Under the pieces are notes generated by a model. The model did not search any database. It had not been told where the DNA came from and saw nothing but the letters and a program-made list of their open reading frames with translations. From contig JANYAL010000013.1 of assembly GCA_025361325.1 (NCBI GenBank), positions 1 through 16,001 on the forward strand: a stretch of DNA of 16,001 nt. The letters are read 5' to 3'. Of this stretch, positions 162-12,531 are shown piece by piece. The stretch is from Bacteroidota bacterium. GTDB taxonomy: Bacteria; Bacteroidota; Bacteroidia; Chitinophagales; Chitinophagaceae. Positions within the stretch are counted from its first letter, which is position 1. Each line of letters starts with the position of its first letter. The translations under genes were made by a program, and so were the position numbers.

Positions 162-989
162 CTATTTCTGATCGCTGTACACCCGTACATAGTCGATCTC
201 CAATCGCTGCGGAAAGCTGTTGTCGTCGATACCGTATTTACCGCCCCAATTGCCGCCGACGGCTATATTGAAGATGAAGTGAAATGCCCTGTCGAAAGGC
301 CAGGCCTCGGTGCCGGTATGTTCATTTTTGAATACGTGGTATTTCTGATCGTCTACAAAAAAGGAGATGGTTTCGGCGGTCCATTCAAGAGCATAGACAT
401 GGAAATTATCAGCCAGGTCGCTGAACTTCAATCCTTTTGTTTTCTGTGTACCCTTCATGCCGTTATAAGCACCGGTATGTATGCTGCCGAAAACGGAATC
501 CGGCATATAACCCACGTTCTCCATGATATCTATCTCGCCGCTGTGGGGCCAGTCGCCATACTCCCAATGAGTAGGCATCATCCACACGGCGGGCCAGGTA
601 CCTTTGCCTTTGGAGATCTTTGCCTTAATTTCGAACCGTCCGTATTTCCAGTCGCCCTTGTTTTTACTCACCAGCCTGGCTGATGTATAGGACGATCCCT
701 TGAAATTTTCTTTCCTGGCCTCAATGATCAGCCTTCCATTCTCCACCCTGGCATTCTCCGGCCTTTTGGCAGTATAATATTCCTTTTCATTATTTCCCCA
801 GCCACAGATCTTGGGGCATCCGTTGCCCTCCTCGTAACTCCACTTGGTACTGTCGGGCAAACCGTTATAATTGAACTCATCGGACCAGACCAGTTTTTTG
901 AATCCTGTCTGGGCACTATCCGTACAACTGCAGCATACCAGGATCAATGAACAGCAGGTTATCAGCAGGTTTTTATAAGATGTGTTCAT
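162..989 (-). CDS. GH16 endo-beta-glucanase (laminarinase-type), exported lipoprotein
   Basis: 275-aa glycoside hydrolase family 16 enzyme that should cut internal beta-1,3 (or mixed beta-1,3-1,4) glucan linkages by a retaining mechanism. The catalytic motif GEIDIMENVG is intact: E152 nucleophile, D154 assisting, E157 acid/base. Other family landmarks are VWSDEFN (34-40), GWGNNEKEYY (63-72), YGRFEIKAK (116-124), GTWPAVWMMP (130-139), LEWTAETISFFVDD (201-214), NIAVGGNWGG (241-250) and the closing EIDYVRVY (264-271). The N-terminus has a hydrophobic segment ending in a Cys cluster (Cys19, 20, 22); this is not a textbook lipobox but suggests lipidation. A Cys pair (58, 62) in GCPKIC is absent from the neighbouring GH16. 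There is no PKD domain, so it is essentially a bare catalytic domain. It is the last gene of the PUL, 212 bases after the other GH16. The exact linkage specificity cannot be read from sequence. Confidence 0.93.
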   Translation of the reverse strand: MNTSYKNLLITCCSLILVCCSCTDSAQTGFKKLVWSDEFNYNGLPDSTKWSYEEGNGCPKICGWGNNEKEYYTAKRPENARVENGRLIIEARKENFKGSSYTSARLVSKNKGDWKYGRFEIKAKISKGKGTWPAVWMMPTHWEYGDWPHSGEIDIMENVGYMPDSVFGSIHTGAYNGMKGTQKTKGLKFSDLADNFHVYALEWTAETISFFVDDQKYHVFKNEHTGTEAWPFDRAFHFIFNIAVGGNWGGKYGIDDNSFPQRLEIDYVRVYSDQK

Positions 990-1052
990 TGGAAATGATT
1001 GGTTTTTTGTTCATCGGAATTTTACGTGTGAGCACATCAGTGATCATAGCAG

Positions 1053-1109
1053 TGAAAAAAGAAAAAAGTGGAGGCACTATATCTTGGAAAAGAAAATACG
1101 ACCACTTTT
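1053..1109 (-). terminator. Possible attenuator/terminator between the two GH16 genes
   Basis: On the minus strand AAAAGTGG (complement of 1102-1109) can pair with CCACTTTT (complement of 1064-1071), and the tract TTTTTTCTTTTTT (complement of 1055-1067) overlaps and follows the second arm. The loop is long (30 bases), so stability is uncertain. If it works it would lower or condition expression of the last GH16 gene relative to the rest of the operon. Seen directly: the inverted repeat and T-tract. Inferred: the function. Confidence 0.35.
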
Positions 1110-1137
1110 AATGATTGCTTATATGAGGTTTTTAATG

Positions 1138-1166
1138 ACAGGGAGCCTGTTTTACGGGCCACCTGT
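1138..1166. other. Stem-loop in the GH16-GH16 intergenic gap
   Basis: ACAGG (1138-1142) pairs with CCTGT (1162-1166). After a 2x2 internal mismatch, GCCTG (1145-1149) pairs with CGGGC (1155-1159) around a TTTTA loop, with one G-T pair when read on the plus strand and one C-A mismatch on the minus strand. No T-run follows on the minus strand, so it is a weak terminator candidate for the operon. It could be an RNA-processing or stability element, or chance. Confidence 0.25.
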
Positions 1167-1201
1167 TATGTTTTACTTTTAAGATCCGGGGCGATCAACT
1201 G

Positions 1202-2233
1202 CTAATGATATAACCTTACATAATCCACTTCCAGTACATCGCTGGTAAAGCCCGGGTCAACCGCACCGCCGAAATTACCTCCTATGGCCAGGTTCAGGAT
1301 CACAAAGAAATTCTGGTTAAAGGGCAGGCTTCCGTTATTGGTGAAGATCTTGAATATAACACCATCCACAGAAAAGGAGATGTACGATGGGGTCCAGTCC
1401 AGCGCATATTTATGGAATGCCGTACTGGCGTTCGCTATGACCGTGGTAGACACATCCCCGTTGCTACCGGAATGGCCGGGATAATGAACGGTGCCGTAGA
1501 TCTTGTTTTGGTCACTGCCCTTTTGTTCCATAACGTCTATCTCGCCGCAATTGGGCCAGCCCACAGAAGATATATTATTACCCAGCAACCAGAATGCCGG
1601 CCAGGTGCCCAGGGCCGAAGACAGTTTTGCGCTGATCTCGATCCTGCCGTATTGGAAGGAGAATTTATTCATGGTCAGCAGCCGGGCTGAAGTATAAGCA
1701 CTGCCCATAAAACTCTCTTTTTTGGCGATGATCTTCAGCGTTCCACCCGATACTATGGCATTGTCGGGCCTGTTGGTATAATATTCCAGTTCATTATTGC
1801 CCCAACCGCCGGACCCTGTACCAATATCATATCCCCATTTTGAGGGATCGGGTGCGCCCGGTACATCAAATTCATCTGACCATACGAGCGTTAATACAAC
1901 GGTAACGGTGATGTTTATGCTCTTGGATACGGTTTGCCCGGTAGAGGACTTTGCCACCACATTAACGGAATAAGTACCGGAGGCAGGATATTTGTAGGTG
2001 ATAACCCCCGACGGAACAGTTTGAAAAATGCCGTTGCCATAATCAAAATCATAACTCACCGCGTTGGTGGCGGATGCAGTAAAAGAAACATTGCCGCTGT
2101 TATCCAGGGCCACCACGGCGGAAACAGAAAGATTCGTGGGAGCCGAACCGGAATTATCGGTTGTACTGCTTTTGCTGCAGGAGGCCAGCAAAGCAATGAT
2201 GACCACGGTATATTTTACCAATTTCCCTTTCAT
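1202..2233 (-). CDS. PKD-GH16 endo-beta-glucanase lipoprotein
   Basis: 343-aa two-domain glycoside hydrolase. A lipoprotein signal ends in LLASC, with Cys19 as the lipidation site. A PKD-like beta-sandwich follows (about 34-112, with YDFDYGNG and YKYPASGTYSVNV). The GH16 catalytic domain spans 114-343. The catalytic motif GEIDVMEQKG is intact: E231, D233, E236. Further GH16 landmarks are VWSDEFD (117-123), GGWGNNELEYYT (142-153), YGRIEISAK (195-203), GTWPAFWLLG (209-218) and NLAIGGNFGG (314-323). GWGNNE plus AIGGNFGG is typical of laminarinase-like GH16 enzymes. It probably acts as a surface-anchored endo-beta-1,3-glucanase, with the PKD domain as spacer or binding module. It lies 11 bases after the preceding PKD lipoprotein gene, so it is co-transcribed with it. 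ATG start with an AT-rich leader. Confidence 0.94.
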   Translation of the reverse strand: MKGKLVKYTVVIIALLASCSKSSTTDNSGSAPTNLSVSAVVALDNSGNVSFTASATNAVSYDFDYGNGIFQTVPSGVITYKYPASGTYSVNVVAKSSTGQTVSKSINITVTVVLTLVWSDEFDVPGAPDPSKWGYDIGTGSGGWGNNELEYYTNRPDNAIVSGGTLKIIAKKESFMGSAYTSARLLTMNKFSFQYGRIEISAKLSSALGTWPAFWLLGNNISSVGWPNCGEIDVMEQKGSDQNKIYGTVHYPGHSGSNGDVSTTVIANASTAFHKYALDWTPSYISFSVDGVIFKIFTNNGSLPFNQNFFVILNLAIGGNFGGAVDPGFTSDVLEVDYVRLYH

Positions 2234-2244
2234 CGTATGATACT

Positions 2245-3147
2245 TTACTTAATTTTCAATTTTTGATACCAGGCATTGCCATCACTGCCGATATTACGCA
2301 GGAAGACATTGGTGGAAGATATGGAAAGGATTTCATAGGTCTTTCCGCCGGTGGCAAAATTTATGATACCATTACCTGGTACTGCAAACTGCACCTGGGT
2401 GGAATTGGCAGGCGTTGAACCCGAAGTGGCGGGCGAAAAACCAAGTTTCTTTGGGCCAATGGTAGCAATAGTATAACATCCGTCCCCGCCGGACAGTCCA
2501 TAGGTAGCTGTAGCAGCACCGATCATAAAGGATTGTCCTTTATTATCTACGTTAATTGATATCCCGCCGATGCCATCACTGATAAAAGTGATCTCGTCAT
2601 CATACGCACAGGCTTCTCTTGAATTCGGTGATGCGGCATACCAGTCTGGATAAAAGCTGGTATTAGGCCCTACACCAAAATGACCGTTCGCATCATGGTC
2701 TGTGATCCATATCTTACTGGCACCATTGGTAAGAGCAGCAATGATATTGGCAGGTATCTGGTAATCGGTGAATACCGTGATGCTCTTATCCAGCGTAGAG
2801 GTGCTTCCGCCTGTCCCAATTGCATTCACAGAAACGGTATAATTGTATGTACCCTTTACAGCGTTGATATATTTATGACTGAAGTTGCCGGAATAGGAAG
2901 TATCGGTACTTCCGTCTCCGTAAAATATCTTGTACAGGAGTGCATCTGTTGCCGCAGCAGCGAAAGTTACGCGCCCGGTACCGTCTCCGTTAGGGTTTGG
3001 ACCACTAATACCCAATACCGTTGGGGTCATCGTAAGCCCTGCGGGTGTTTTCAGCGTTCCAAATGAATAGGTTTCTTTCTTGCAGCTGCTGAAGCCGAAC
3101 AGCATCGCCAGCAATATAACTGCAAAAGATCTGATATTAGTAACCAT
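2245..3147 (-). CDS. PKD-domain surface glycan-binding lipoprotein, unassigned C-terminal domain
   Basis: 300-aa lipoprotein: signal peptide ending FGFSSC (Cys22), then one PKD-like domain (about 37-126, with YKIFYGDGS and SHKYINAVKGTYNYTVSV). The C-terminal region (about 132-300) matches no family I can name with confidence. That region has a Trp/Asp-rich start (KIWITDHDANGHFGVGP, then DWYAASP), an acidic YDDEITF and a final YEILSISSTNVFLRN strand pattern, which looks like a beta-sandwich. No catalytic signature is visible. Its position between SusC/D and the GH16 enzymes suggests a surface glycan-binding protein (the SusE/F or SGBP-B slot) that captures the same glucan. It is 18 bases after the preceding gene and 11 before the next. 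The binding role is inferred; an unrecognised enzyme cannot be excluded. Confidence 0.8.
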   Translation of the reverse strand: MVTNIRSFAVILLAMLFGFSSCKKETYSFGTLKTPAGLTMTPTVLGISGPNPNGDGTGRVTFAAAATDALLYKIFYGDGSTDTSYSGNFSHKYINAVKGTYNYTVSVNAIGTGGSTSTLDKSITVFTDYQIPANIIAALTNGASKIWITDHDANGHFGVGPNTSFYPDWYAASPNSREACAYDDEITFISDGIGGISINVDNKGQSFMIGAATATYGLSGGDGCYTIATIGPKKLGFSPATSGSTPANSTQVQFAVPGNGIINFATGGKTYEILSISSTNVFLRNIGSDGNAWYQKLKIK

Positions 3148-3165
3148 GGTTTTTAGTTTTTATAA

Positions 3166-4752
3166 TTAGTTAAGTCTGATATCATCAAAATAATAAGTCA
3201 ACCCGGTACCCGTGTTACCAAAATCAAAGAATACAACAACCCTTTGATAGTTATTGGCACTTACGATACCGCTGAAATCGAACGTGAGGTCTTCCCATCC
3301 ATTAGCGATCGTGGTGTTCACATCCCGTTCAATATTGATTGCTGGATTGCCAAGGTTCTCCAGTTTTAGTTTGATATCCAGACCGGCTGCCGGCACCCAA
3401 ACCTTCATATTGATCTTATGCAGGAAATTAAAATTGATAGGATTGCCCAATTCCAGGTAAGAACCGGCCCATACCTGTGCGCCTGCGCCCTTGGTAAGTG
3501 CCCCCACTTTAGAGGAGGTATTGATACCTGTCACATGCGGATTGCTCACCACGGTTGATGCTGCACCTCCGAAATCGGTGAAATTATAGGGCAGGGTGGC
3601 TGACTGAAAATCGATCGGCAGTTGTAACCCGCTGTATATGTTCACGGGCTCAAATTTAACATCATCCCACAGGAACACTTTGCCGCTGCCGGGTGTACCG
3701 AAATCAAAGAATACGGAAGCCTTGTCATACGTATAACCAAGGTTCAGTGCAGCCGTTCCCGTTGCCTGGTAGGCAAAATCAAAGATCAGTTTTTGCCAGG
3801 TATTGGCAACGGTGGTGAGTGCTTCTGTTTCCACAGATTTGGTAGGGTCGTTATGGTCCTCCACTTTCAGGCGTACATGGATGCCCACGGCAGGTGAATA
3901 AACGCGCATACTCATTTGGGTGGTCAATGCAGTGAAAGGTACTTTATGAACAAAACCCTGGTTATTGCCCATGGTAGTGCCGGCCCAGGTCTCTGCACCG
4001 GGGGCCTTGGTGGTCTGTTCTACATTGTTACTGTTATTGGTGGGGTCAACTGCGCCCACAGATACGGCTCCGCCAAAATCAATGACCGAGTAATCAATCG
4101 TGGGGTCATCAAAGGTAACGGGGAGGTCTAGCTGGTTCTTGATGGATATCACCTGGGTATAGGTGGTCCGGGCGGCGCCGCCGCTGAGCGCCACAACCCG
4201 TATTGTATAGGTGCCGGTACTGGCATAGGTATGACTGATGATCTGTCCCTGCAGGAAATTCTGAGGCACTTCATTGGGTACATCTCCAAAATACACCTGG
4301 AAAAAGGTTTGGTAAATGGCTGTGGCCGACACATTGACCTTAAACCTGCTCACGGCATCCCGCGTAATGGTCACCACCAGGTTCTCAGGTGCCCGAAAAG
4401 TCACTGTCAGTGGCTGTGACAATACCGTTGTTTGCCCGGTAAGGCTATGGGCGATGGTCTTTACCGTATAATTTCCTTCCGGATACTTGTGGGTCACATT
4501 ACCGCCGGCCAGCACTTTTGCAGGCGCCGTGGTAGTATCCCCGAAGAATATCTCGTAATAGGAAGCCCCTTCAGCTCCGGGATAGATGGTCACCAGGCCG
4601 GAATTGTCTTGCGTGATCGTGAACAGTTCCGCCAGTTTGGAAGGGGTCACCGCCGGCTGTAGCAGGGAGACGTCGTTGTAATTTTGTTTTTCGCAACTGA
4701 TAACGGCAGTCATCAGGAGGAGCAAACAAAGAATATTTTTTATTGCTTTCAT
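3166..4752 (-). CDS. Multidomain surface glycan-binding lipoprotein (2 PKD-like + 2 duplicated CBM-like modules)
   Basis: 528-aa lipoprotein with signal ending VISC (Cys20). Two PKD-like domains follow: about 40-118 (YYEIFFGDT, THKYPEGNYTVKTI) and about 120-205 (FQVYFGDVP, SHTYASTGTYTIRVV). Then come two related modules of about 150-160 residues, 209-368 and 378-528. Both open with LPV/I-x-F and a DFGGA block, contain a GA-x2-WAG motif and an HK strand, then V-x-SPA/VPAAG-hydrophobic-RL/KLK, then W-x-L-FDF, and close with V-FFDFG and a (W/F)DD strand. No catalytic site is evident. The architecture suits an extended surface binder that presents glucan to SusC/D and the GH16 enzymes. The modules look like jelly-roll carbohydrate-binding modules, but I cannot assign a CBM family. 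It starts 27 bases after the susD-like stop. Confidence 0.82.
   Translation of the reverse strand: MKAIKNILCLLLLMTAVISCEKQNYNDVSLLQPAVTPSKLAELFTITQDNSGLVTIYPGAEGASYYEIFFGDTTTAPAKVLAGGNVTHKYPEGNYTVKTIAHSLTGQTTVLSQPLTVTFRAPENLVVTITRDAVSRFKVNVSATAIYQTFFQVYFGDVPNEVPQNFLQGQIISHTYASTGTYTIRVVALSGGAARTTYTQVISIKNQLDLPVTFDDPTIDYSVIDFGGAVSVGAVDPTNNSNNVEQTTKAPGAETWAGTTMGNNQGFVHKVPFTALTTQMSMRVYSPAVGIHVRLKVEDHNDPTKSVETEALTTVANTWQKLIFDFAYQATGTAALNLGYTYDKASVFFDFGTPGSGKVFLWDDVKFEPVNIYSGLQLPIDFQSATLPYNFTDFGGAASTVVSNPHVTGINTSSKVGALTKGAGAQVWAGSYLELGNPINFNFLHKINMKVWVPAAGLDIKLKLENLGNPAINIERDVNTTIANGWEDLTFDFSGIVSANNYQRVVVFFDFGNTGTGLTYYFDDIRLN
3169..4128 (-). repeat. Tandem duplicated CBM-like module within the glycan-binding lipoprotein
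   Basis: The C-terminal 320 residues consist of two homologous modules: copy A at about 3649-4128 and copy B at about 3169-3621. Shared landmarks in the same order are DFGGA, GA-x2-WAG, a KV/KI strand, a GI/GLxV/IRLK/KLK strand, W-x-x-L-x-FDF, VFFDFG-x2-G-G and a terminal DDI/V strand. Divergence is substantial, so this is an old protein-level duplication and not a recent DNA repeat. Confidence 0.75.
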
Positions 4753-4779: not shown

Positions 4780-6297
4780 TCAGTAACCGGGGTTTTGTGT
4801 CAATCCGCCGTCCACTTCGCCCTGGGGTATGGGAAACAGTTCATTTTTCCCGGTAACGAATCCTAAAGGGCCCAGTACACTTGCAGCCTTCCCGGTTCTG
4901 ACCAGGTCAAAAAAGCGTTCGCCTTCCATGGCAAGTTCCAGTCTCCGTTCATTCAGAATGGCGTCGTACAATGCAGACCCCGTCACATTCACATCATGTG
5001 CATTGTCTCCGAAAGCACGGCGGCGCACGAGGTTCAGATAGGTCTGGGCCTTCCCATCATTGGCTGCAGTGGCTTTATTATTGGCCTCTGCCGCCAGCAG
5101 CAATACATCAGCATAACGAATGGTTCTGAAATTATTATCGTAGTTGAGTTCTACCTGACCGGAAGTTTCACCTTTACGGGGCTGGAATTTTGCATTGTAT
5201 AAACCGGTATTCTCGTATGGTGCCACCTGGTAACTGATATTATAGGAAGGGTTTGCGTTCTTATACGCTTCAATATCTAATACAGTGGCATCTTTTCTTT
5301 TATCCCCGGCGGCATAGGCAGAAGCCAGGTTCTGGGTAGGCAGGTTTGTACTCCAGCCCGGGTTATAGGGCATATTACCGGAACCAACCAATCCCCTTAC
5401 GCCACACTGTTGAACAGAATAATTTCCCTGGCCGCGGGTAACATGTCCCCAGTCGTATGTGCCCTGCCCGTTCGAATACTGGATCTCAAATACAGACTCG
5501 GGGCCATTTTCGCCACTCAGCAGGAATATGGAAGCAAAATCAGGTACGAGGCTGTAGGCATTTGAAGTGATTACTTTTTCAAGTGTGGAAGCAGCGGCAT
5601 CATATTTATTCTCATATAGATACACTTTACCCAGCAATGCCTGGGCTGCATATTTGGTGGCCCTGCCCTTGTCTGTTTGTGTTGCCGGCAATACACTGAT
5701 GGCATTGTTCAGATCCGTTTCAATCTGTTTGTACACATCCGCTTTAGGTGACCTTTTCAATTGCCTGGAATCGGCCAGGGTGAGCCTCTTGTCAGTGAAT
5801 AAAGGAACATCCCCGAACACCTTTACCAGGTTGAAATAATAAAAAGCCCGCAGGAAATATACTTCGCCGTACAGGGCATCTTTGCCGGCAAAGGTAACAG
5901 TGGCGCCTGACAGGTTCTTATCCTTATACTGGTAGAGGTAATTGGCCCGGTTGATACCTTCATACATTACCTGCCAGAGGTCGGCGATGGTGGAATTTAT
6001 CGGGTAGTGTGTGTACTTATCAATCTGCTGCAAGGAAAGCACATCAGAAGCACTTTCTCCGCCTGTAACAGAATTATCTGTGGCGATATCACCAACCGGT
6101 ACAATCTGGTTCATCCACTGGAGGGGTGAATACACACCCACTGTCATGGCCCGGTAATCACCTTCGTTCTGCAGGTAATCCTGTTCAGTGATCAGGAAGT
6201 CCTGGTGTGCATTGTAATCAACCCATTTTTTACAGGATGCCAGCGATGTGACCAGGATCACCGCACTTAATATCTTTAAACTTTTCATCGTATTCAT
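4780..6297 (-). CDS. SusD/RagB-family glycan-binding outer-membrane lipoprotein
   Basis: 505-aa SusD-like protein, a usual length for the family. The lipoprotein signal ends LASC (Cys22). The helical TPR-rich SusD fold is shown by an N-terminal LQQIDKYTHYPIN block, WQVMYEGINRANYLYQY, YGEVYFLRAFYYFNLVKVFGDVPL (the signature RAFYYF-L-FGDVPL, about 130-153) and AKADVYKQIETDL-type helices. The C-terminal SusD/RagB half has IRYADVLLLAAEA, LNLVRRRAFG, ILNERRLELAMEGERFFDLVRTG and a final LFPIPQ-E--LTQNPGY. It caps the SusC barrel as a hinged lid and recruits oligosaccharide. It begins 16 bases after the susC-like gene. Two in-frame ATGs (codons 1 and 4) are both possible starts; the first is used here. 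Confidence 0.96.
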   Translation of the reverse strand: MNTMKSLKILSAVILVTSLASCKKWVDYNAHQDFLITEQDYLQNEGDYRAMTVGVYSPLQWMNQIVPVGDIATDNSVTGGESASDVLSLQQIDKYTHYPINSTIADLWQVMYEGINRANYLYQYKDKNLSGATVTFAGKDALYGEVYFLRAFYYFNLVKVFGDVPLFTDKRLTLADSRQLKRSPKADVYKQIETDLNNAISVLPATQTDKGRATKYAAQALLGKVYLYENKYDAAASTLEKVITSNAYSLVPDFASIFLLSGENGPESVFEIQYSNGQGTYDWGHVTRGQGNYSVQQCGVRGLVGSGNMPYNPGWSTNLPTQNLASAYAAGDKRKDATVLDIEAYKNANPSYNISYQVAPYENTGLYNAKFQPRKGETSGQVELNYDNNFRTIRYADVLLLAAEANNKATAANDGKAQTYLNLVRRRAFGDNAHDVNVTGSALYDAILNERRLELAMEGERFFDLVRTGKAASVLGPLGFVTGKNELFPIPQGEVDGGLTQNPGY

Positions 6298-6313: not shown

Positions 6314-9300
6314 TTAAAATTTGATGTCAAGGCCGAAAGCATAGGTCCTGGCCTGGGGATAGGTACCTCTGTCCACACCGGTATCGAGCAAACCGCCGCC
6401 GGCAATTTCAGGATCAAGACCGTTATACCTGGTGAAGGTGAACGGGTTCTTTACCTGTGCATATACCCTTACGTTCCTGAATACCTTTTTTACTGCTGCC
6501 AGCGGAATATTGTAACCCAACAGCAGGTTCTTCACCTTTACAAATGAACCATCTGTTACATACCGGTCAGATACGCGGCTGTTATTGTTCACATCGGTGA
6601 ATGTGTAGCGGGGGCTTCTTGCATCATTGGTGGTACCGGGCCCGGTCCACCTGCTCAGTATACCCCTGTATTTATTGGTATAGGTATCATTTCTTTCAAA
6701 TGCCATGTAGATATCATTTCCATAAGAGGCATAGGTGAAAGCACTGAAATCAAAATTCTTGTAGGTAAGTCCCAGGTTCCAGCCCATGGTGAATTTGGGG
6801 AAAGGATTGCCAATCACCGTCTGGTCCTTGCTGTCGATCACGCCATCACCATTCAGGTCCTGGAATTTGATATCACCGGGTTTGGCACCATTTTGTATGG
6901 GTGACTTGTCGATCTCTGCCTGGGTCTGAAAAAGTCCGGCAGTTTTATAGCCAAAGAAAGCAGCCGGCGTTTGGCCCGGCCCGAAGATGGTCACGTTCTG
7001 AGACTGGCCATTGAAATAACCGCCTCCGAAGATGTATGCGCCATTATCACCAGTTTTGGTAACCAGGTTCTTTACGGTAGTAAATGTAAGTGATGTGTTC
7101 AGGCCCAGGTCTTTGATGATCTTACTGTTGAAGCCGAGGGTGATGTCGACCCCACTGCTCTTGGTGCTGCCGATATTGGCAGGGGGGGGTGGAATGGTTC
7201 CCAGGTAGGCCGACAGGGAAGGCGTGAACAGCAATCCATCCACTGTTTTGGTGAAATAGTCAGCGCTAATATTGAATTTGTTCTTGTAGAAAGTGGCTTC
7301 AAAGCCCGCATTGCTCTGTAACTGCTTCTCCCAGCGAAGGGCGGAGTTGGCAGCAGAGGCAATGGTGGATCCCGGAAAAAATACGTTACCGAACGTGTAG
7401 CCGATACTGTTTCCCGAACCATAGAGAGAGGCCAGGTAATCGGTTTGAATGGTTACCAGCACCTTACGGGGATCTATACCATTATCACTGCCCACAGAAC
7501 CGTAGCTTCCCCTGATCTTCAGGAAATTAATGAAATTGCTTTTAAAGAAATCCTCTTTACTGACCACCCAGCCCAGTGAACCGGAGAGGAAAGTAGCGAA
7601 TTTATTATCGACCCCAAATGCATAGGAACCGTCTCTTCTTGCGGTGAAGGAAGCCAGGTATTTGTCTTCATAATCATAGTTCACCCTGCCGAAGCCGGAA
7701 GCGTGCTTATTAAAGTATTGGAAATAATAGCCGTTCAGCCCGTTGGTATTATTATTGGTTGTATTACCTGTAGCCGCTGTAAAATCAGCGAATTGCCATG
7801 AATTATAGGGCACATCCTGCCTGCTTGCCCCGGCGGTGTTGCCTGTGCCCTTGGACAGGGTCATACCTACCGTGGTTTCCAGGTGATGCTTGCTGTAGAG
7901 GGTAAAGTTATAGTTTGCAAAAAGGTCGATATTGTAATTCGCATACGTTGCCTTGGTATGGGATACGCTGTTATGCAGTCCGGAAATAGTGGAACCGTCT
8001 GCGTTCAGTGTATTGCCCGTATTGTTCAGGCCCCAGAAGACGAGGGGATCGAAGCTTTTGGAATTGCCGTCGTACTTCGTATACCCGTACCTGGCGGAAA
8101 GCCTGAGGTTCTTGATGGGCTCATACTGGAATTCGAATTTTCCATACAGCTTGTTACCCGCGTTGGTATTATAGGTATTATCCAGTTTAGTGAGCGGGTT
8201 GTATACTTCCCGGGTGATCAGGTTACTGAATCCGTATTTACCAACCGTACTGGGTACGTTATTATAGATGGGTACCGTGGGATCGAAATTGATAGCACTG
8301 CCCAGGATACTGTTAAAAGCATTCTCCGCCACACTTCTTCCGTCGAAATTCAGGTAGGTGGCATCCACGATAAATTTCAGGTTGGAGGTAAGGTCGATGG
8401 AAAGGTTCGACGTAAAGTTCAAACGGTTGAAACGGGATTTGTCATATCCGCCAAGGATACCACCTTGCTGCAGGTAACCGCCCGATACGAAATAGGTGAT
8501 CTTGTCACTACCGCCCCTGGCGGAAATATTATGCGTTTGCAGGGGTGCATTATTGAAGACCTGTTTTTGCCAGTCGGTACCAACGCCCAGTACAGAAAGG
8601 TCGGGGAAGATGACACTTCCTCCACTCAGGGTACTGCCTTCATTAAGCATGGCACCGTATTCGGTGGCATTCAATACCGGCAGGGTACGAATCACCTGCT
8701 GTATGCTATAGCTGCTGTTAAGGGTTATATCTGTCTTTTGATTCTTGCGTCCCGACTTAGTGGTGATCACGATTACCCCGTTACCCCCCTTCACACCATA
8801 AATGGCTGTGGCCGAAGCGTCCTTCAGAACGGAGACAGACTCTATCTCGGTAGGATTGATTGAGTTCAGATCATCTGTGGTTTGCTCAACACCATCCACG
8901 ATCACAGTGGGTTTTCCCGAAAGGTCGGGTATACCACGGATGAAGATGGTTGGACCAACACCCGGAGAACCGCTTTGAATGATGTTTACACCCGAAACAG
9001 ATCCCTGCAGTGCCTCTTCCACCCGTACCGGGTTCAGTTTCTGTATATCTGCGCTTTTTACAGTAGAGATGGCACCGGATACCTTGGTCACTTTCTGGGT
9101 GCCGTATCCTACTACCACTACATCCTGCATAGTATTTGAAGCACTTTCCTGCATGAATATCTGTACCGGTGCGTCATTATTGCGCACCAAATACTCTACG
9201 GGTGTCATACCTATATATGATACGACCAGGGTTGCCCCCTTTTTTGCAGTAATGGAAAAGTTACCGTTTTCGTCGGATGTTGTTCCTACGGCACTACCCT

Positions 9301-9445
9301 TTATACTGATTGTACTGCCAGGTACAGGTTTTCCCGTTGAACTGTTGCTTACTTTACCGGAAAGTTTGAGATCTTGCCCGATGGCTTGTTGAAGAAATAT
9401 GCCAGTCGTAGTGAGCAGGCACAATAGTGCTAGTTTTAATTTCAT
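6314..9445 (-). CDS. SusC/RagA-family TonB-dependent outer-membrane transporter
   Basis: 1043-aa SusC-like transporter that imports glucan oligosaccharides across the outer membrane using TonB-ExbBD energy. In order: a signal peptide (1 to about 24, QAIGQ), a CarboxypepD_reg-like domain (about 26-102: GKVSNSSTGKPVPGSTISIKG, then GNFSITAKKGATLVVSYIGM), a DVVVVGYGTQ segment before the plug (108-117), and the plug (about 118-232: LQGSVSGVNI, IFIRGIPDLSGKPTVIVDGV, ASATAIYGVKGGNGVIVITTKSG). A 22-strand barrel follows, ending in a terminal Phe (GLDIKF) typical of outer-membrane proteins. Full length and intact. First gene of the PUL operon, with the promoter about 40-50 bases upstream. A run of eight G on the plus strand (about 7182-7189) encodes a Pro-Pro-Pro-Pro segment; the frame is maintained. 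Confidence 0.97.
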   Translation of the reverse strand: MKLKLALLCLLTTTGIFLQQAIGQDLKLSGKVSNSSTGKPVPGSTISIKGSAVGTTSDENGNFSITAKKGATLVVSYIGMTPVEYLVRNNDAPVQIFMQESASNTMQDVVVVGYGTQKVTKVSGAISTVKSADIQKLNPVRVEEALQGSVSGVNIIQSGSPGVGPTIFIRGIPDLSGKPTVIVDGVEQTTDDLNSINPTEIESVSVLKDASATAIYGVKGGNGVIVITTKSGRKNQKTDITLNSSYSIQQVIRTLPVLNATEYGAMLNEGSTLSGGSVIFPDLSVLGVGTDWQKQVFNNAPLQTHNISARGGSDKITYFVSGGYLQQGGILGGYDKSRFNRLNFTSNLSIDLTSNLKFIVDATYLNFDGRSVAENAFNSILGSAINFDPTVPIYNNVPSTVGKYGFSNLITREVYNPLTKLDNTYNTNAGNKLYGKFEFQYEPIKNLRLSARYGYTKYDGNSKSFDPLVFWGLNNTGNTLNADGSTISGLHNSVSHTKATYANYNIDLFANYNFTLYSKHHLETTVGMTLSKGTGNTAGASRQDVPYNSWQFADFTAATGNTTNNNTNGLNGYYFQYFNKHASGFGRVNYDYEDKYLASFTARRDGSYAFGVDNKFATFLSGSLGWVVSKEDFFKSNFINFLKIRGSYGSVGSDNGIDPRKVLVTIQTDYLASLYGSGNSIGYTFGNVFFPGSTIASAANSALRWEKQLQSNAGFEATFYKNKFNISADYFTKTVDGLLFTPSLSAYLGTIPPPPANIGSTKSSGVDITLGFNSKIIKDLGLNTSLTFTTVKNLVTKTGDNGAYIFGGGYFNGQSQNVTIFGPGQTPAAFFGYKTAGLFQTQAEIDKSPIQNGAKPGDIKFQDLNGDGVIDSKDQTVIGNPFPKFTMGWNLGLTYKNFDFSAFTYASYGNDIYMAFERNDTYTNKYRGILSRWTGPGTTNDARSPRYTFTDVNNNSRVSDRYVTDGSFVKVKNLLLGYNIPLAAVKKVFRNVRVYAQVKNPFTFTRYNGLDPEIAGGGLLDTGVDRGTYPQARTYAFGLDIKF

Positions 9446-9492: not shown

Positions 9493-9525
9493 CAAATCTA
9501 CAGGGTTATGTTGTAGAAATACTAA
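9493..9525 (-). promoter_or_regulatory. Predicted promoter of the PUL operon (susC)
   Basis: On the minus strand TAGATTTG (complement of 9493-9500) matches the Bacteroidota -7 consensus TAnnTTTG exactly. A partial -33 box, TTAG (complement of 9522-9525; consensus TTTG), lies 21 bases upstream. Transcription would begin near 9486, giving a leader of about 40 bases to the susC ATG. The -33 mismatch suggests the promoter needs an activator. Confidence 0.65.
9497..9517. promoter_or_regulatory. Palindromic operator candidate overlapping the susC -7 box
   Basis: TCTACA (9497-9502) and TGTAGA (9512-9517) form a perfect 6-bp inverted repeat with a 9-base spacer. The left arm overlaps the predicted -7 box and the right arm lies in the promoter spacer. 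The arms share the CTACA core with the direct repeats further upstream. Seen: the symmetry. Inferred: a regulator-binding site. Confidence 0.5.
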
Positions 9526-9531
9526 AAATAG

Positions 9532-9606
9532 CTACATCAACACTACATCAAAAAGAAAATCAATCACTATTTTAAGCGTATTTTGAGTACTTCAATACTA
9601 CATCAA
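9532..9606. promoter_or_regulatory. Three phased CTACATCAA direct repeats (putative activator sites)
   Basis: CTACATCAA occurs at 9532-9540, 9543-9551 and 9598-9606. The spacings are 11 and 55 bp, exact multiples of 11, so the copies lie on one face of the helix. Relative to the predicted susC start the first two sit near -46 to -65, a normal activator position. The third lies near the regulator gene's own start. This fits binding by the divergently encoded LuxR-type regulator, including possible autoregulation. Confidence 0.55.
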
Positions 9607-9648
9607 CATATTTTTTATACTTTCACAAACACAAATCAGGGTACAACA

Positions 9649-12531
9649 TTGAAAAAAATCATTATTTTATTGTTACTTCCCATTTCCCTGGCTGGTCAAA
9701 ACACAATCGGGCTGCCCGATGTGATCAATTACCCCCGTATAACATATGGCGCCGGCTTACAGAACTGGGATATCCGGCAAGACAAGAGCGGGATCATTTA
9801 CCTGGCCAATAATGAGGGTTTACTCAGTTTCGACGGCAAATACTGGAACCTGTACCCTCTTCCCAACAAAACAATCGTGCGTTCGGTTGAGATTGCACCA
9901 GATAATAAAATATATGTGGGTGGCCAGGACGAACTGGGATACTTTGCGCCCTCAGAGAACGGGAGGCTTCAATACCGTTCCATTACAAGCCTCATCCCCG
10001 AAAAGTACCGCTCATTCGGGGATGTATGGGATATTGTTGCGCTCCACCATGATGTTTTCTTCCGGACCTCCAACCTCATCTTCAGGATCACCAATGAGTC
10101 TGTGGCAGTATATAATGCACCCGCTGAATGGTCATACATGGGTGCCTGTAATGATAAACTGTATGCCCACGACTATAAGAATGGACTGCTCTGTTTCGAA
10201 AATAATGTATGGAAGCCGGTGAATGCGCCTAATATGCTGGCTGTAAATGATCCAGTTACTGCCATTCTTCCGCTTCAAAAAGACAGTATTCTGATCACCA
10301 CGCTAAAGAATGGCTTGTACATCCTGTCATCAGCTGGTTATTCCAGCATGCACACGCCGGCCACTGACATGATCGAAAAGGAAAGGATCTACACCGCCTG
10401 CTCCATCAGCAGCGACAGGATCGCCCTGGGAACCAACAACGGCGGTGTCTTTATTATTGACGCCACCGGACAGCTGATCCAGCGCTTTTCCAAGACAGAA
10501 GGTTTACAGAATAACAATGTACTGAGCCTTTTCCACGACAGGCAGGGAGATCTGTGGCTGGGACTGGATAACGGTATCGATTTCATCGCCTATAATAGTG
10601 CCATAAAACACATCACGCCCTCCTCCCTGGATGCCTCGGGCTATACCGCCATTATCCATAAGGACTATTTATATGCCGGCACGTCTGCCGGACTCTTCCG
10701 TGTACTTCTGCAGCCCGTCAGTGACCTCAGTTTCAGTAAAGGCGTATTTTCTGAAGTGGTGAATACTACCGGACAAACCTGGGGCCTTGCCGAGATCAAT
10801 GGCCAGTTGCTGCTCGGACATCATGAAGGCGCTTTTATTGTTACCGGTAATACCGCAACACCCATTTACTCCGGTACCGGATTCTGGAATTTTCTGCCGC
10901 TCTCTGAAGTATTCCCATCCAAGAAGATCGTGGCAGGTAATTATAAGGGGCTAACCTTCTTTAATTACAACAACAGTTCCTTTACGCCTGCCGAGAGCAT
11001 CCGGGGCTTTGAAGAATCTTCCAGGTTCATAGCCATCGACAAGAATGATAATATCTGGGTGTCACACCCCTATCACGGGGTGTACCGTATAACCCGCTCA
11101 CCCGACAGCAGTTACACCGTAAAATTATATACCAACGCCAACGGATTGCCCTCCACCCTAAACAATCATGTTTATAAGATCAAGAACGAAGTGGTGGTGG
11201 CAACGGAAAAGGGCATTTACGGGTATAACGCTGCCAGGGATATCTTTGAACCATCAGCAGAATATAAGTACCTGCTCGGTCAGCAAAGTATCCGGTACCT
11301 CCGGGAAGATACGGAAGGCAATATCTGGTTCATACATGAAAAGAACCTGGGTGTACTGGAAATGTCCACAAAAAAACCATCTCTCATCTATCTGCCCGAA
11401 CTGAACAACAAAATGCTCAGCGGCTTTGAATTCATATATCCCGTGAACGAACACAATATTTTTGTGGGCAGTGAGAAGGGTTTCTTTCACATTAATTTTG
11501 AGAAATACAAAAATAACGTTCCTGAGATTCGGGTGCTCGTACGGTCGGTAAGGATCATCGACACCAGGGACAGTCTCCTCTTCGGTGGCTACCTGCCCGA
11601 CAGCAATGACAAGCAGGTGCAGGACGAGAACAGCATCCGGCAGATAAACAATAACTGGAAAACGATTCGTTTTGAATATGCTTCGCCACTTTTCGGGCAG
11701 CAAAACAACCTGGAATACAGTTACCGGCTGAGGGGTTTCAATGATCAGTGGTCCGATTGGTCTAATAAAACAGAGAAGGAATACACCAACCTGCCTGTTG
11801 GTACTTACACGTTTGAGATCAAGGTCCGCAATAACCTGGGCAATGAATCTATACCCGCCTATTATGGCTTCCGCATTCTTCCCCACTGGTACCAAAGCAC
11901 CTGGGTCTATATCATCTATTTCCTGGTATTCTGCCTGCTGGCCTGGTTATTTTACAGGTGGGACCGGAAAAAATTCCACCAGCAACAGAAGCGTTACGAG
12001 GAAGAACAGAAAAGGCTGCAATACCTGCACCAGCTCGAGATCAACAAGGCGGAAAATGAACTGGTGGCACTGCGTAACGAAAAACTGCAGGCAGAGATCG
12101 ATTACAAGAATTCTGAACTGGCCACCACCGCCATGCACCTGCTGCAGAAGGGAGAATTGCTTACCAAGATGAAGACCGAACTGAACCAGGTGATGAAAGT
12201 ACTGAGCAATGAGAAAGAAGTGAACGAACTGAAGAAGATGATAAAAGTACTCAGTGAGGATGACAAGGTAGACAAGGACTGGGAACATTTTGCACAGCAC
12301 TTCGACAAAGTGCACAACGACTTTGTGATCAGGCTCAAGGAAAAACACCCTGCCCTGAGCGGGAATGAATTAAAATTATGTGCTTACCTGCGCATGAATC
12401 TGTCGACCAAGGAAATAGCACAGCTTATGAATATATCTGTACGCGGGGTGGAGATCAGCCGTTACCGCCTGAGGAAAAAACTGGGCATCGCTTCTTCATT
12501 AAGCCTTTTCGAATACCTGATGAATCTCTGA
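9649..12531 (+). CDS. Membrane-spanning propeller-sensor transcriptional regulator with LuxR-type HTH (PUL regulator)
   Basis: About 960 aa if started at TTG 9649, which gives a clean signal sequence MKKIIILLLLPISLAGQ with AGGG seven bases upstream; a TTG at 9583 would put 22 polar residues in front. Residue numbers follow the 9649 start. Periplasmic beta-propeller blades fill about 20-640 (repeats such as GDLWLGLDNGID, NDNIWVSHPYHGV, GNIWFIHEKNLGV). A Y_Y_Y domain follows (about 673-743: YSYRLRGFNDQWSDWS, LPVGTYTFEIKVRN), then one membrane helix (about 752-770), a charged coiled coil (about 774-868) and a C-terminal LuxR/NarL-type HTH (about 902-944: SGNELKLCAYLRMNLSTKEIAQLMN, then SVRGVEISRYRLRKKL). 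There is no histidine-kinase or receiver domain, so it should act as a one-component sensor binding DNA from the inner membrane, in the manner of SusR-type regulators. It is divergent from susC and probably activates the operon when glucan fragments bind the propeller. Confidence 0.9.
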   Translation: MKKIIILLLLPISLAGQNTIGLPDVINYPRITYGAGLQNWDIRQDKSGIIYLANNEGLLSFDGKYWNLYPLPNKTIVRSVEIAPDNKIYVGGQDELGYFAPSENGRLQYRSITSLIPEKYRSFGDVWDIVALHHDVFFRTSNLIFRITNESVAVYNAPAEWSYMGACNDKLYAHDYKNGLLCFENNVWKPVNAPNMLAVNDPVTAILPLQKDSILITTLKNGLYILSSAGYSSMHTPATDMIEKERIYTACSISSDRIALGTNNGGVFIIDATGQLIQRFSKTEGLQNNNVLSLFHDRQGDLWLGLDNGIDFIAYNSAIKHITPSSLDASGYTAIIHKDYLYAGTSAGLFRVLLQPVSDLSFSKGVFSEVVNTTGQTWGLAEINGQLLLGHHEGAFIVTGNTATPIYSGTGFWNFLPLSEVFPSKKIVAGNYKGLTFFNYNNSSFTPAESIRGFEESSRFIAIDKNDNIWVSHPYHGVYRITRSPDSSYTVKLYTNANGLPSTLNNHVYKIKNEVVVATEKGIYGYNAARDIFEPSAEYKYLLGQQSIRYLREDTEGNIWFIHEKNLGVLEMSTKKPSLIYLPELNNKMLSGFEFIYPVNEHNIFVGSEKGFFHINFEKYKNNVPEIRVLVRSVRIIDTRDSLLFGGYLPDSNDKQVQDENSIRQINNNWKTIRFEYASPLFGQQNNLEYSYRLRGFNDQWSDWSNKTEKEYTNLPVGTYTFEIKVRNNLGNESIPAYYGFRILPHWYQSTWVYIIYFLVFCLLAWLFYRWDRKKFHQQQKRYEEEQKRLQYLHQLEINKAENELVALRNEKLQAEIDYKNSELATTAMHLLQKGELLTKMKTELNQVMKVLSNEKEVNELKKMIKVLSEDDKVDKDWEHFAQHFDKVHNDFVIRLKEKHPALSGNELKLCAYLRMNLSTKEIAQLMNISVRGVEISRYRLRKKLGIASSLSLFEYLMNL

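Follow-up and report, generated by a model that had tools for sequence, protein, structure and literature searches.

Which protein reads a cluster of identical repeats between a susC homologue and a divergent regulator gene, and which of the two genes do the repeats serve? The question is raised by a stretch of 16,001 nucleotides from a Bacteroidota bacterium (the window), in which an earlier note had seen three identical 9-mers and proposed a complete operator for a membrane-tethered regulator of the LuxR type. The repeats are likely, at a probability of about 0.8, to be the operator of the one-component regulator that is encoded divergently from susC.

The locus and its repeats

The window is a polysaccharide utilization locus (PUL) with susC and susD homologues, a PKD-like protein and two GH16 proteins, all encoded on the minus strand (Table 1). 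Judging from the GH16 proteins, the substrate would be a beta-glucan of the laminarin type. The regulator, whose best named matches are Chitinophagaceae loci, carries Reg_prop plus Y_Y_Y domains and thus counts as a propeller sensor. Its GerE HTH (PF00196) scored 24.9 bits at a cut-off of 23.5, with the recognition helix at about residues 931-945. No kinase, receiver or AraC domain was found in it by Pfam at E 0.001. The best-placed start codon is the TTG at 9649, where homology begins; a longer frame opens at a TTG at 9583.

Table 1. Coordinates of genes, half-sites and candidate promoter boxes in the window.
Feature	Position	Strand	Remarks
Rest of the PUL	162..4752	-	Pfam
GH16 protein	162-989	-	Pfam
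GH16 protein	1202-2233	-	Pfam
ORF without Pfam match	2245-3147	-	
PKD-like protein	3166-4752	-	just under the Pfam cut-off
susD-like protein	4780..6297	-	Pfam; inferred to share the operon
susC-like TonB-dependent receptor	6314..9445	-	Plug, CarbopepD_reg_2, TonB barrel (Pfam); inferred target
susC -7-like box, TAGATTTG	9493..9500	-	31 nt from the edge of pair I
Half-site 1, CTACATCA	9532..9539	+	pair I, susC-proximal
Half-site 2, CTACATCA	9543..9550	+	pair I, 11 bp after half-site 1
Half-site 3, GTACTTCA, degenerate	9587..9594	+	pair II; at -62, 2 mismatches
Half-site 4, CTACATCA	9598..9605	+	pair II, regulator-proximal
Possible regulator -7 box, TACTTTCA	9618..9625	+	12 nt from pair II, weak
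Membrane-tethered regulator, divergent	9649..12531	+	Reg_prop, Y_Y_Y sensor, long helix, GerE HTH

Exact copies of CTACATCAA were found on the plus strand at 9532, 9543 and 9598, with the steps of 11 and 55 that had been described. A degenerate half-site, GTACTTCA at 9587, had been missed; with it, the gap holds four half-sites in two head-to-tail pairs, each with an 11-bp step and the pairs 55 bp apart. In addition, the earlier note had counted a palindrome over the susC -7 box as part of the operator. This palindrome, CTACA-N9-TGTAG, is present at 9498-9516, but it was found in only one of 50 divergent gaps of homologues with at least 45% identity (two of the 50 being repeat copies), namely the window itself, and was rejected as an operator part. 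The operator reading is supported, with one half-site more and the palindrome left out.

The clustering was compared with dinucleotide shuffles of the window, counting any 9-mer with at least three letters and three non-overlapping copies within 75 bp. Three such 9-mers were found in the real window and none in any of 200 shuffles. With one mismatch allowed, CTACATCAA has seven matches in the window, which is not unusual (4.0 expected; at least seven in 31 of 200 shuffles). Genome-wide, the lone 9-mer occurs in 26 exact copies, compared to 23.9 expected from independent bases at the GC content of the window. This is background frequency, which the earlier note had named as a reason to doubt the operator, and the lone 9-mer was dropped as a genome-wide marker. 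The tandem pattern CTACATCAANACTACATCAA, in contrast, gave two hits with up to two mismatches, 9532-9551 and 9587-9606, both in this gap; the assembly searched is 88% complete, so further sites may be missing.

Conservation, phasing and position of the pairs

The earlier note had pointed to orthologous loci as the place to look for the motif. Both pairs are kept in all 26 orthologues that share at least 50% identity and for which upstream DNA was at hand (30 fetched rows less four repeat or near-duplicate rows; five partial hits, G019, G023, G055, G080 and G087, whose start or upstream DNA was missing or outside the fetched set, do not enter the count). The step between the pairs is 54 bp in 19 orthologues, 53 bp in six and 55 bp in the window alone. 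The second half-site is the better conserved, with at most one mismatch in 26/26 (pair I) and 25/26 (pair II). The first half-site has at most two mismatches in 21/26 (pair I; three to four in the other five) and in 24/26 (pair II).

When 175 permuted consensi were picked in the same way, a step of 53-55 bp was obtained in a mean of 5.4 of 26 orthologues; the maximum of 21/26 arises because some permutations still overlap the true sites. The mean mismatch of the permuted consensi was never below 6.65, compared to 3.31 for the true consensus. A chance or low-complexity cluster, for which the background count of the lone 9-mer would speak, is a negligible explanation in view of the conservation and spacing in all 26 orthologues and the absence of such a cluster from the 200 shuffles.

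Two further features were seen in relatives. The spacer between the pairs contains a palindrome-like GATWWTCAAT in 9 of 35 orthologues (e.g. L049, L089, L092; shuffled mean 0.04, maximum 1), which is absent from the window and may be the site of a second factor or a bending site. In L122, L127, L135 and L138, a further lone half-site is found about 24 bp from pair I in the direction of susC (offset -24); it is not evident in the window.

The spacings had been taken as exact multiples of one helical turn. For the analysis of the phasing, 43 further half-site offsets in 48 operators of homologues below 45% identity were used. They follow a 10.95-bp period (R 0.78), and none of 2,000 random sets, which ignore relatedness, was as strong. 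The sites of the relatives fall on a lattice of about 10.9-10.95 bp, which makes the earlier wording a loose one; 10.5-bp phasing was rejected (R 0.27). In the wider loci, the steps from pair to pair are mostly 31-34, 42-44 and 53-55 bp, and isolated values include 64 and 68; a search with TGTAG adds steps of 46 and 49.

The susC and regulator promoter positions were inferred from sequence, with the -7 and -33 consensus as given in the excerpted text of PMC7366714. A TAnnTTTG-like -7 box lies 31 nt from the pair edge with a z of 5.2, and at least five of its six positions match in 61% of 67 loci. On the regulator side, the signal for a -7 box at offset 12 is weak (z 2.5; at least 5/6 matches in 13% of 52 loci). 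The orientation of the pair with respect to susC is the usual one in 58 cases and the opposite one in 4 (all loci, 8 repeat rows dropped). The opposite cases are L221, at a second susC, and L279, L308 and L309; the latter three flipped-pair loci belong to the genomes G465, G516 and G310.

Nine loci with an RG[VIL]E[IV][SGA] recognition helix have susC downstream on the same strand. In five of them (L211, L214, L217, L218, L221) a pair scoring at least 18 was found 101-196 bp before susC, and in L208 and L209 the pair precedes an intervening PKD gene. L215 and L220 have no pair of at least 18 before the downstream susC (same-strand best 14.5 and 14.9). Upstream of the regulator, no pair scoring 18 was found in L211, L214, L217 and L218.

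Pairs were also identified elsewhere: 44 of the 183 pairs scoring at least 18 lie away from any regulator start, before SusC-size or other genes. The SusC-size genes were judged by size, and 20 other flanking proteins were scanned with Pfam. These secondary pairs flank GH3 (L110), GH16 (L119, L266) and GH2-like (L205, L272) proteins, PKD proteins (L208, L209), proteins with a secretion tail (L192, L212, L266), a CBM48 protein (L304), and beta-lactamase-like and ketoacyl-synthase-like genes (L113, L116). Three proteins next to secondary pairs (L111, L205, L272) gave a weak or no Pfam match. In two further loci, redoxin and xylose-isomerase-like TIM-barrel genes flank a pair near the regulator (L158:8175-8235, L161:6402-6420), which differs from the glucan targets at other loci.

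These positions bear on whether the operator mainly autoregulates the regulator gene, with susC as a bystander. Pair II does adjoin the regulator start in divergent loci. Nevertheless, this reading is very improbable, since the four loci named above carry the pair before a downstream susC and none of at least 18 before the regulator, since secondary pairs flank other SusC-size, GH3, GH16 and PKD genes, and since a 31-nt distance to the susC -7-like box is preferred.

Link to the regulator and its recognition helix

The distribution of the pairs was also analyzed in 80 named loci, at least two of which (L146, L150) repeat training loci. In 34 of the 80, the 300 bp upstream of the regulator contain a pair with a score of at least 20; 50 permuted matrices gave a mean of 0. 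Permuted matrices were used in place of reversed controls (pattern, and matrix with 96 hits vs 125). Reversal was unsuitable because CTACATCA reversed is ACTACATC, which matches true sites.

Among 395 genomes across the class, a homologue (E up to 1e-80) was found in 78 and the pattern with at most one mismatch in 21. A homologue is present in 16 of these 21 pattern genomes, the genome of the window included (hypergeometric P 1.2e-8). Of the 27 pattern places, again including that of the window, 13 have a listed homologue at a distance of up to 500 bp and 16 have one at up to 8 kb. The remaining 11 have no listed homologue within 8 kb; as no more than two candidates were scored in each genome, some homologues may have escaped the search.

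The pairs were then tabulated by recognition helix in 181 rows (8 repeats removed) at a threshold score of at least 18. With the RG[VIL]E[IV][SGA] helix (RG loci), a pair was found in 80 of 108 homologues. As 22 of these 80 are training loci, the proportion is 58/86 without them. The other 28 of the 108 have no such pair under the rule applied; for some of them no adjacent susC was found, and in L208 and L209 the pair lies before a PKD gene. A pair was detected in 0/17 homologues with the [RK]A[VI]EV helix (AV loci), in 3/17 with other RG[VI]E helices, in 2/13 with RG[VI]EI[RQH] (flipped in three more), in 0/6 with RS[VM]E, in 3/14 with other helices and in 1/6 where the HTH was not found. For the RS[VM]E and RG[VI]EI[RQH] classes, no resolved motif emerged when their half-sites were examined. 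In related loci with an EIR helix, words resembling CTACATCA are arranged in inverted fashion.

A TGTAG double tandem before an adjacent susC was also searched for in a class-neutral way. Among 58 RG loci it was found in 29, with a spacing of 53-55 bp in 24 of these; among 15 AV loci it was found in 11, nine of them with a spacing of 53-54 bp. The letters TGA before the core have frequencies of 90, 95 and 87% in RG half-sites and of 62, 19 and 35% in AV half-sites. The AV half-sites favour G at the second base after the core (65%), and the variant half-site is TGTAG[TG]G in place of TGATGTAG.

In AV loci with susC downstream, the 53-54 bp layout was found in 9 of 10, with L186 as the exception. 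Two TGTAG[TG]G pairs 53-54 bp apart were recorded in L169, L171, L177, L178, L182, L183, L223, L261 and L262, the first seven of which are from Pedobacter, Parapedobacter and Echinicola. Five AV loci are divergent: in L168 the two pairs are separated by 57 bp, and no second pair was found in L170, L175, L187 and L257.

The half-site changes with the class of the recognition helix, which ties the repeats to the HTH of the regulator. The covariation of helix and operator on a tree made without the HTH points the same way and is not significant (median p 0.125; nine supported independent pairs, with about 3.8 in agreement, 0.1 in disagreement and 5.1 without a difference).

These data can be set against the explanation that the repeats bind another transcription factor, which controls both genes in place of the adjacent regulator. 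This is unlikely, though less so than the autoregulatory explanation. It draws on the 11 of 27 pattern places away from listed homologues and on the homologues without a site, and binding by the regulator is itself deduced from sequence. It is countered by the co-occurrence of pattern and regulator in 16 of 21 genomes and by a half-site that varies with helix class in a layout kept in most AV loci, the tree test being not significant. The pairs thus appear to be a widely conserved operator, most likely of the adjacent regulator.

Proposed mechanism and comparison with known systems

Most likely, the four sites form a switch by which a membrane-bound sugar sensor turns on the neighbouring polysaccharide-uptake genes. 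In the proposed mechanism, a glucan oligosaccharide bound by the periplasmic propeller would alter the coiled-coil dimer, whose two HTHs would bind one pair head to tail, so that two dimers would occupy both pairs. Relative to the inferred susC start, pair I (9532-9550) lies at about -43 to -61, from where it would recruit RNA polymerase to the susCD-GH16 operon. On the other side, pair II (9587-9605), at about -24 to -42 from the inferred start of the regulator, would overlie the -33 region of the latter. Judged by this position, pair II probably damps the regulator's own promoter, and it may also help by looping.

A structure prediction of the C-terminal 206 residues of the regulator, as a monomer without DNA, gave one helix about 96 residues long, together with a small helical bundle and the HTH (mean pLDDT 89). 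The modelled HTH resembles the domains of DosR, LiaR and RcsB (probability near 1; all matches at E of at least 0.001), and together with the Pfam GerE match this is a likeness to the NarL/LuxR family. Many NarL/LuxR (GerE) domains bind inverted repeats as soluble dimers, whereas the repeats found here run head to tail and the protein is membrane-bound.

The regulator was also compared with SusR-type proteins, which we take to be marked by DUF6377. Its DUF6377 match is below the cut-off. None of 20 fetched DUF6377 loci gave a tblastn match to the HTH of the regulator, and no pair scoring 18 was found anywhere in them (best 11.9). SusR-type membership was therefore rejected.

According to the excerpted text of PMC3878776, sites of SusR-like regulators in Bacteroides are predicted as direct repeats with a spacing of 67 or 77 bp. 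These values come close to six and seven 11-bp steps. The predicted sites are similar to the present sites in that a membrane-bound PUL regulator is predicted to use distant direct repeats on one face of the DNA. Unlike these sites, with 67 or 77 bp between box centres in that excerpt, two 11-bp tandem pairs lie 53-55 bp apart in all 26 orthologues here.

The same excerpt predicts sites of the hybrid two-component systems (HTCS) as direct repeats 21 bp apart on average. The HTCS of Bacteroides are similar in having direct-repeat sites in PULs, as far as that text goes, and a homologous sensor domain: the sensor profile of the regulator matches the structures 3v9f and 4a2l, named hybrid sensor kinase/response regulators. 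They differ in their AraC HTH and in repeats about 21 bp apart, compared to a GerE HTH and an 11-bp step here. HTCS membership was rejected on this difference and on the domains searched for by Pfam.

The earlier note had called the DNA sites of this regulator class little described. This agrees with the literature search: among the open-access matches listed, which mostly lack subscription journals, no operator for a propeller-LuxR regulator was found. PMC12125979 concerns, in its excerpt, the Vibrio regulator XylRA. The excerpted part of PMC5698469 gives no site for a LuxR-type regulator, and none of five terms looked for occurs in PMC11253607, on DNA binding by HTCS. To the extent of these matches and excerpts, no earlier description of the operator layout was found.

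A code for the whole class can be suggested tentatively, with somewhat less than even odds as a joint reading. Head-to-tail HTH dimers would bind tandem 11-bp half-sites with a CTACA core on a one-face lattice of about 10.9 bp. The helix would set the flanks, RGVEI reading TCA and [RK]AVEV not. The spacing would vary by whole turns, mostly 3, 4 or 5, so that one anchored complex could bridge divergent promoters.

The predicted sites would give membrane-tethered PUL regulators of this widespread class a concrete operator that can be tested. From the tandem pair in combination with the recognition helix, regulons might be predicted and orphan PULs assigned to their regulators. Furthermore, such an operator raises the question of how a membrane-anchored protein finds and bridges its DNA sites.
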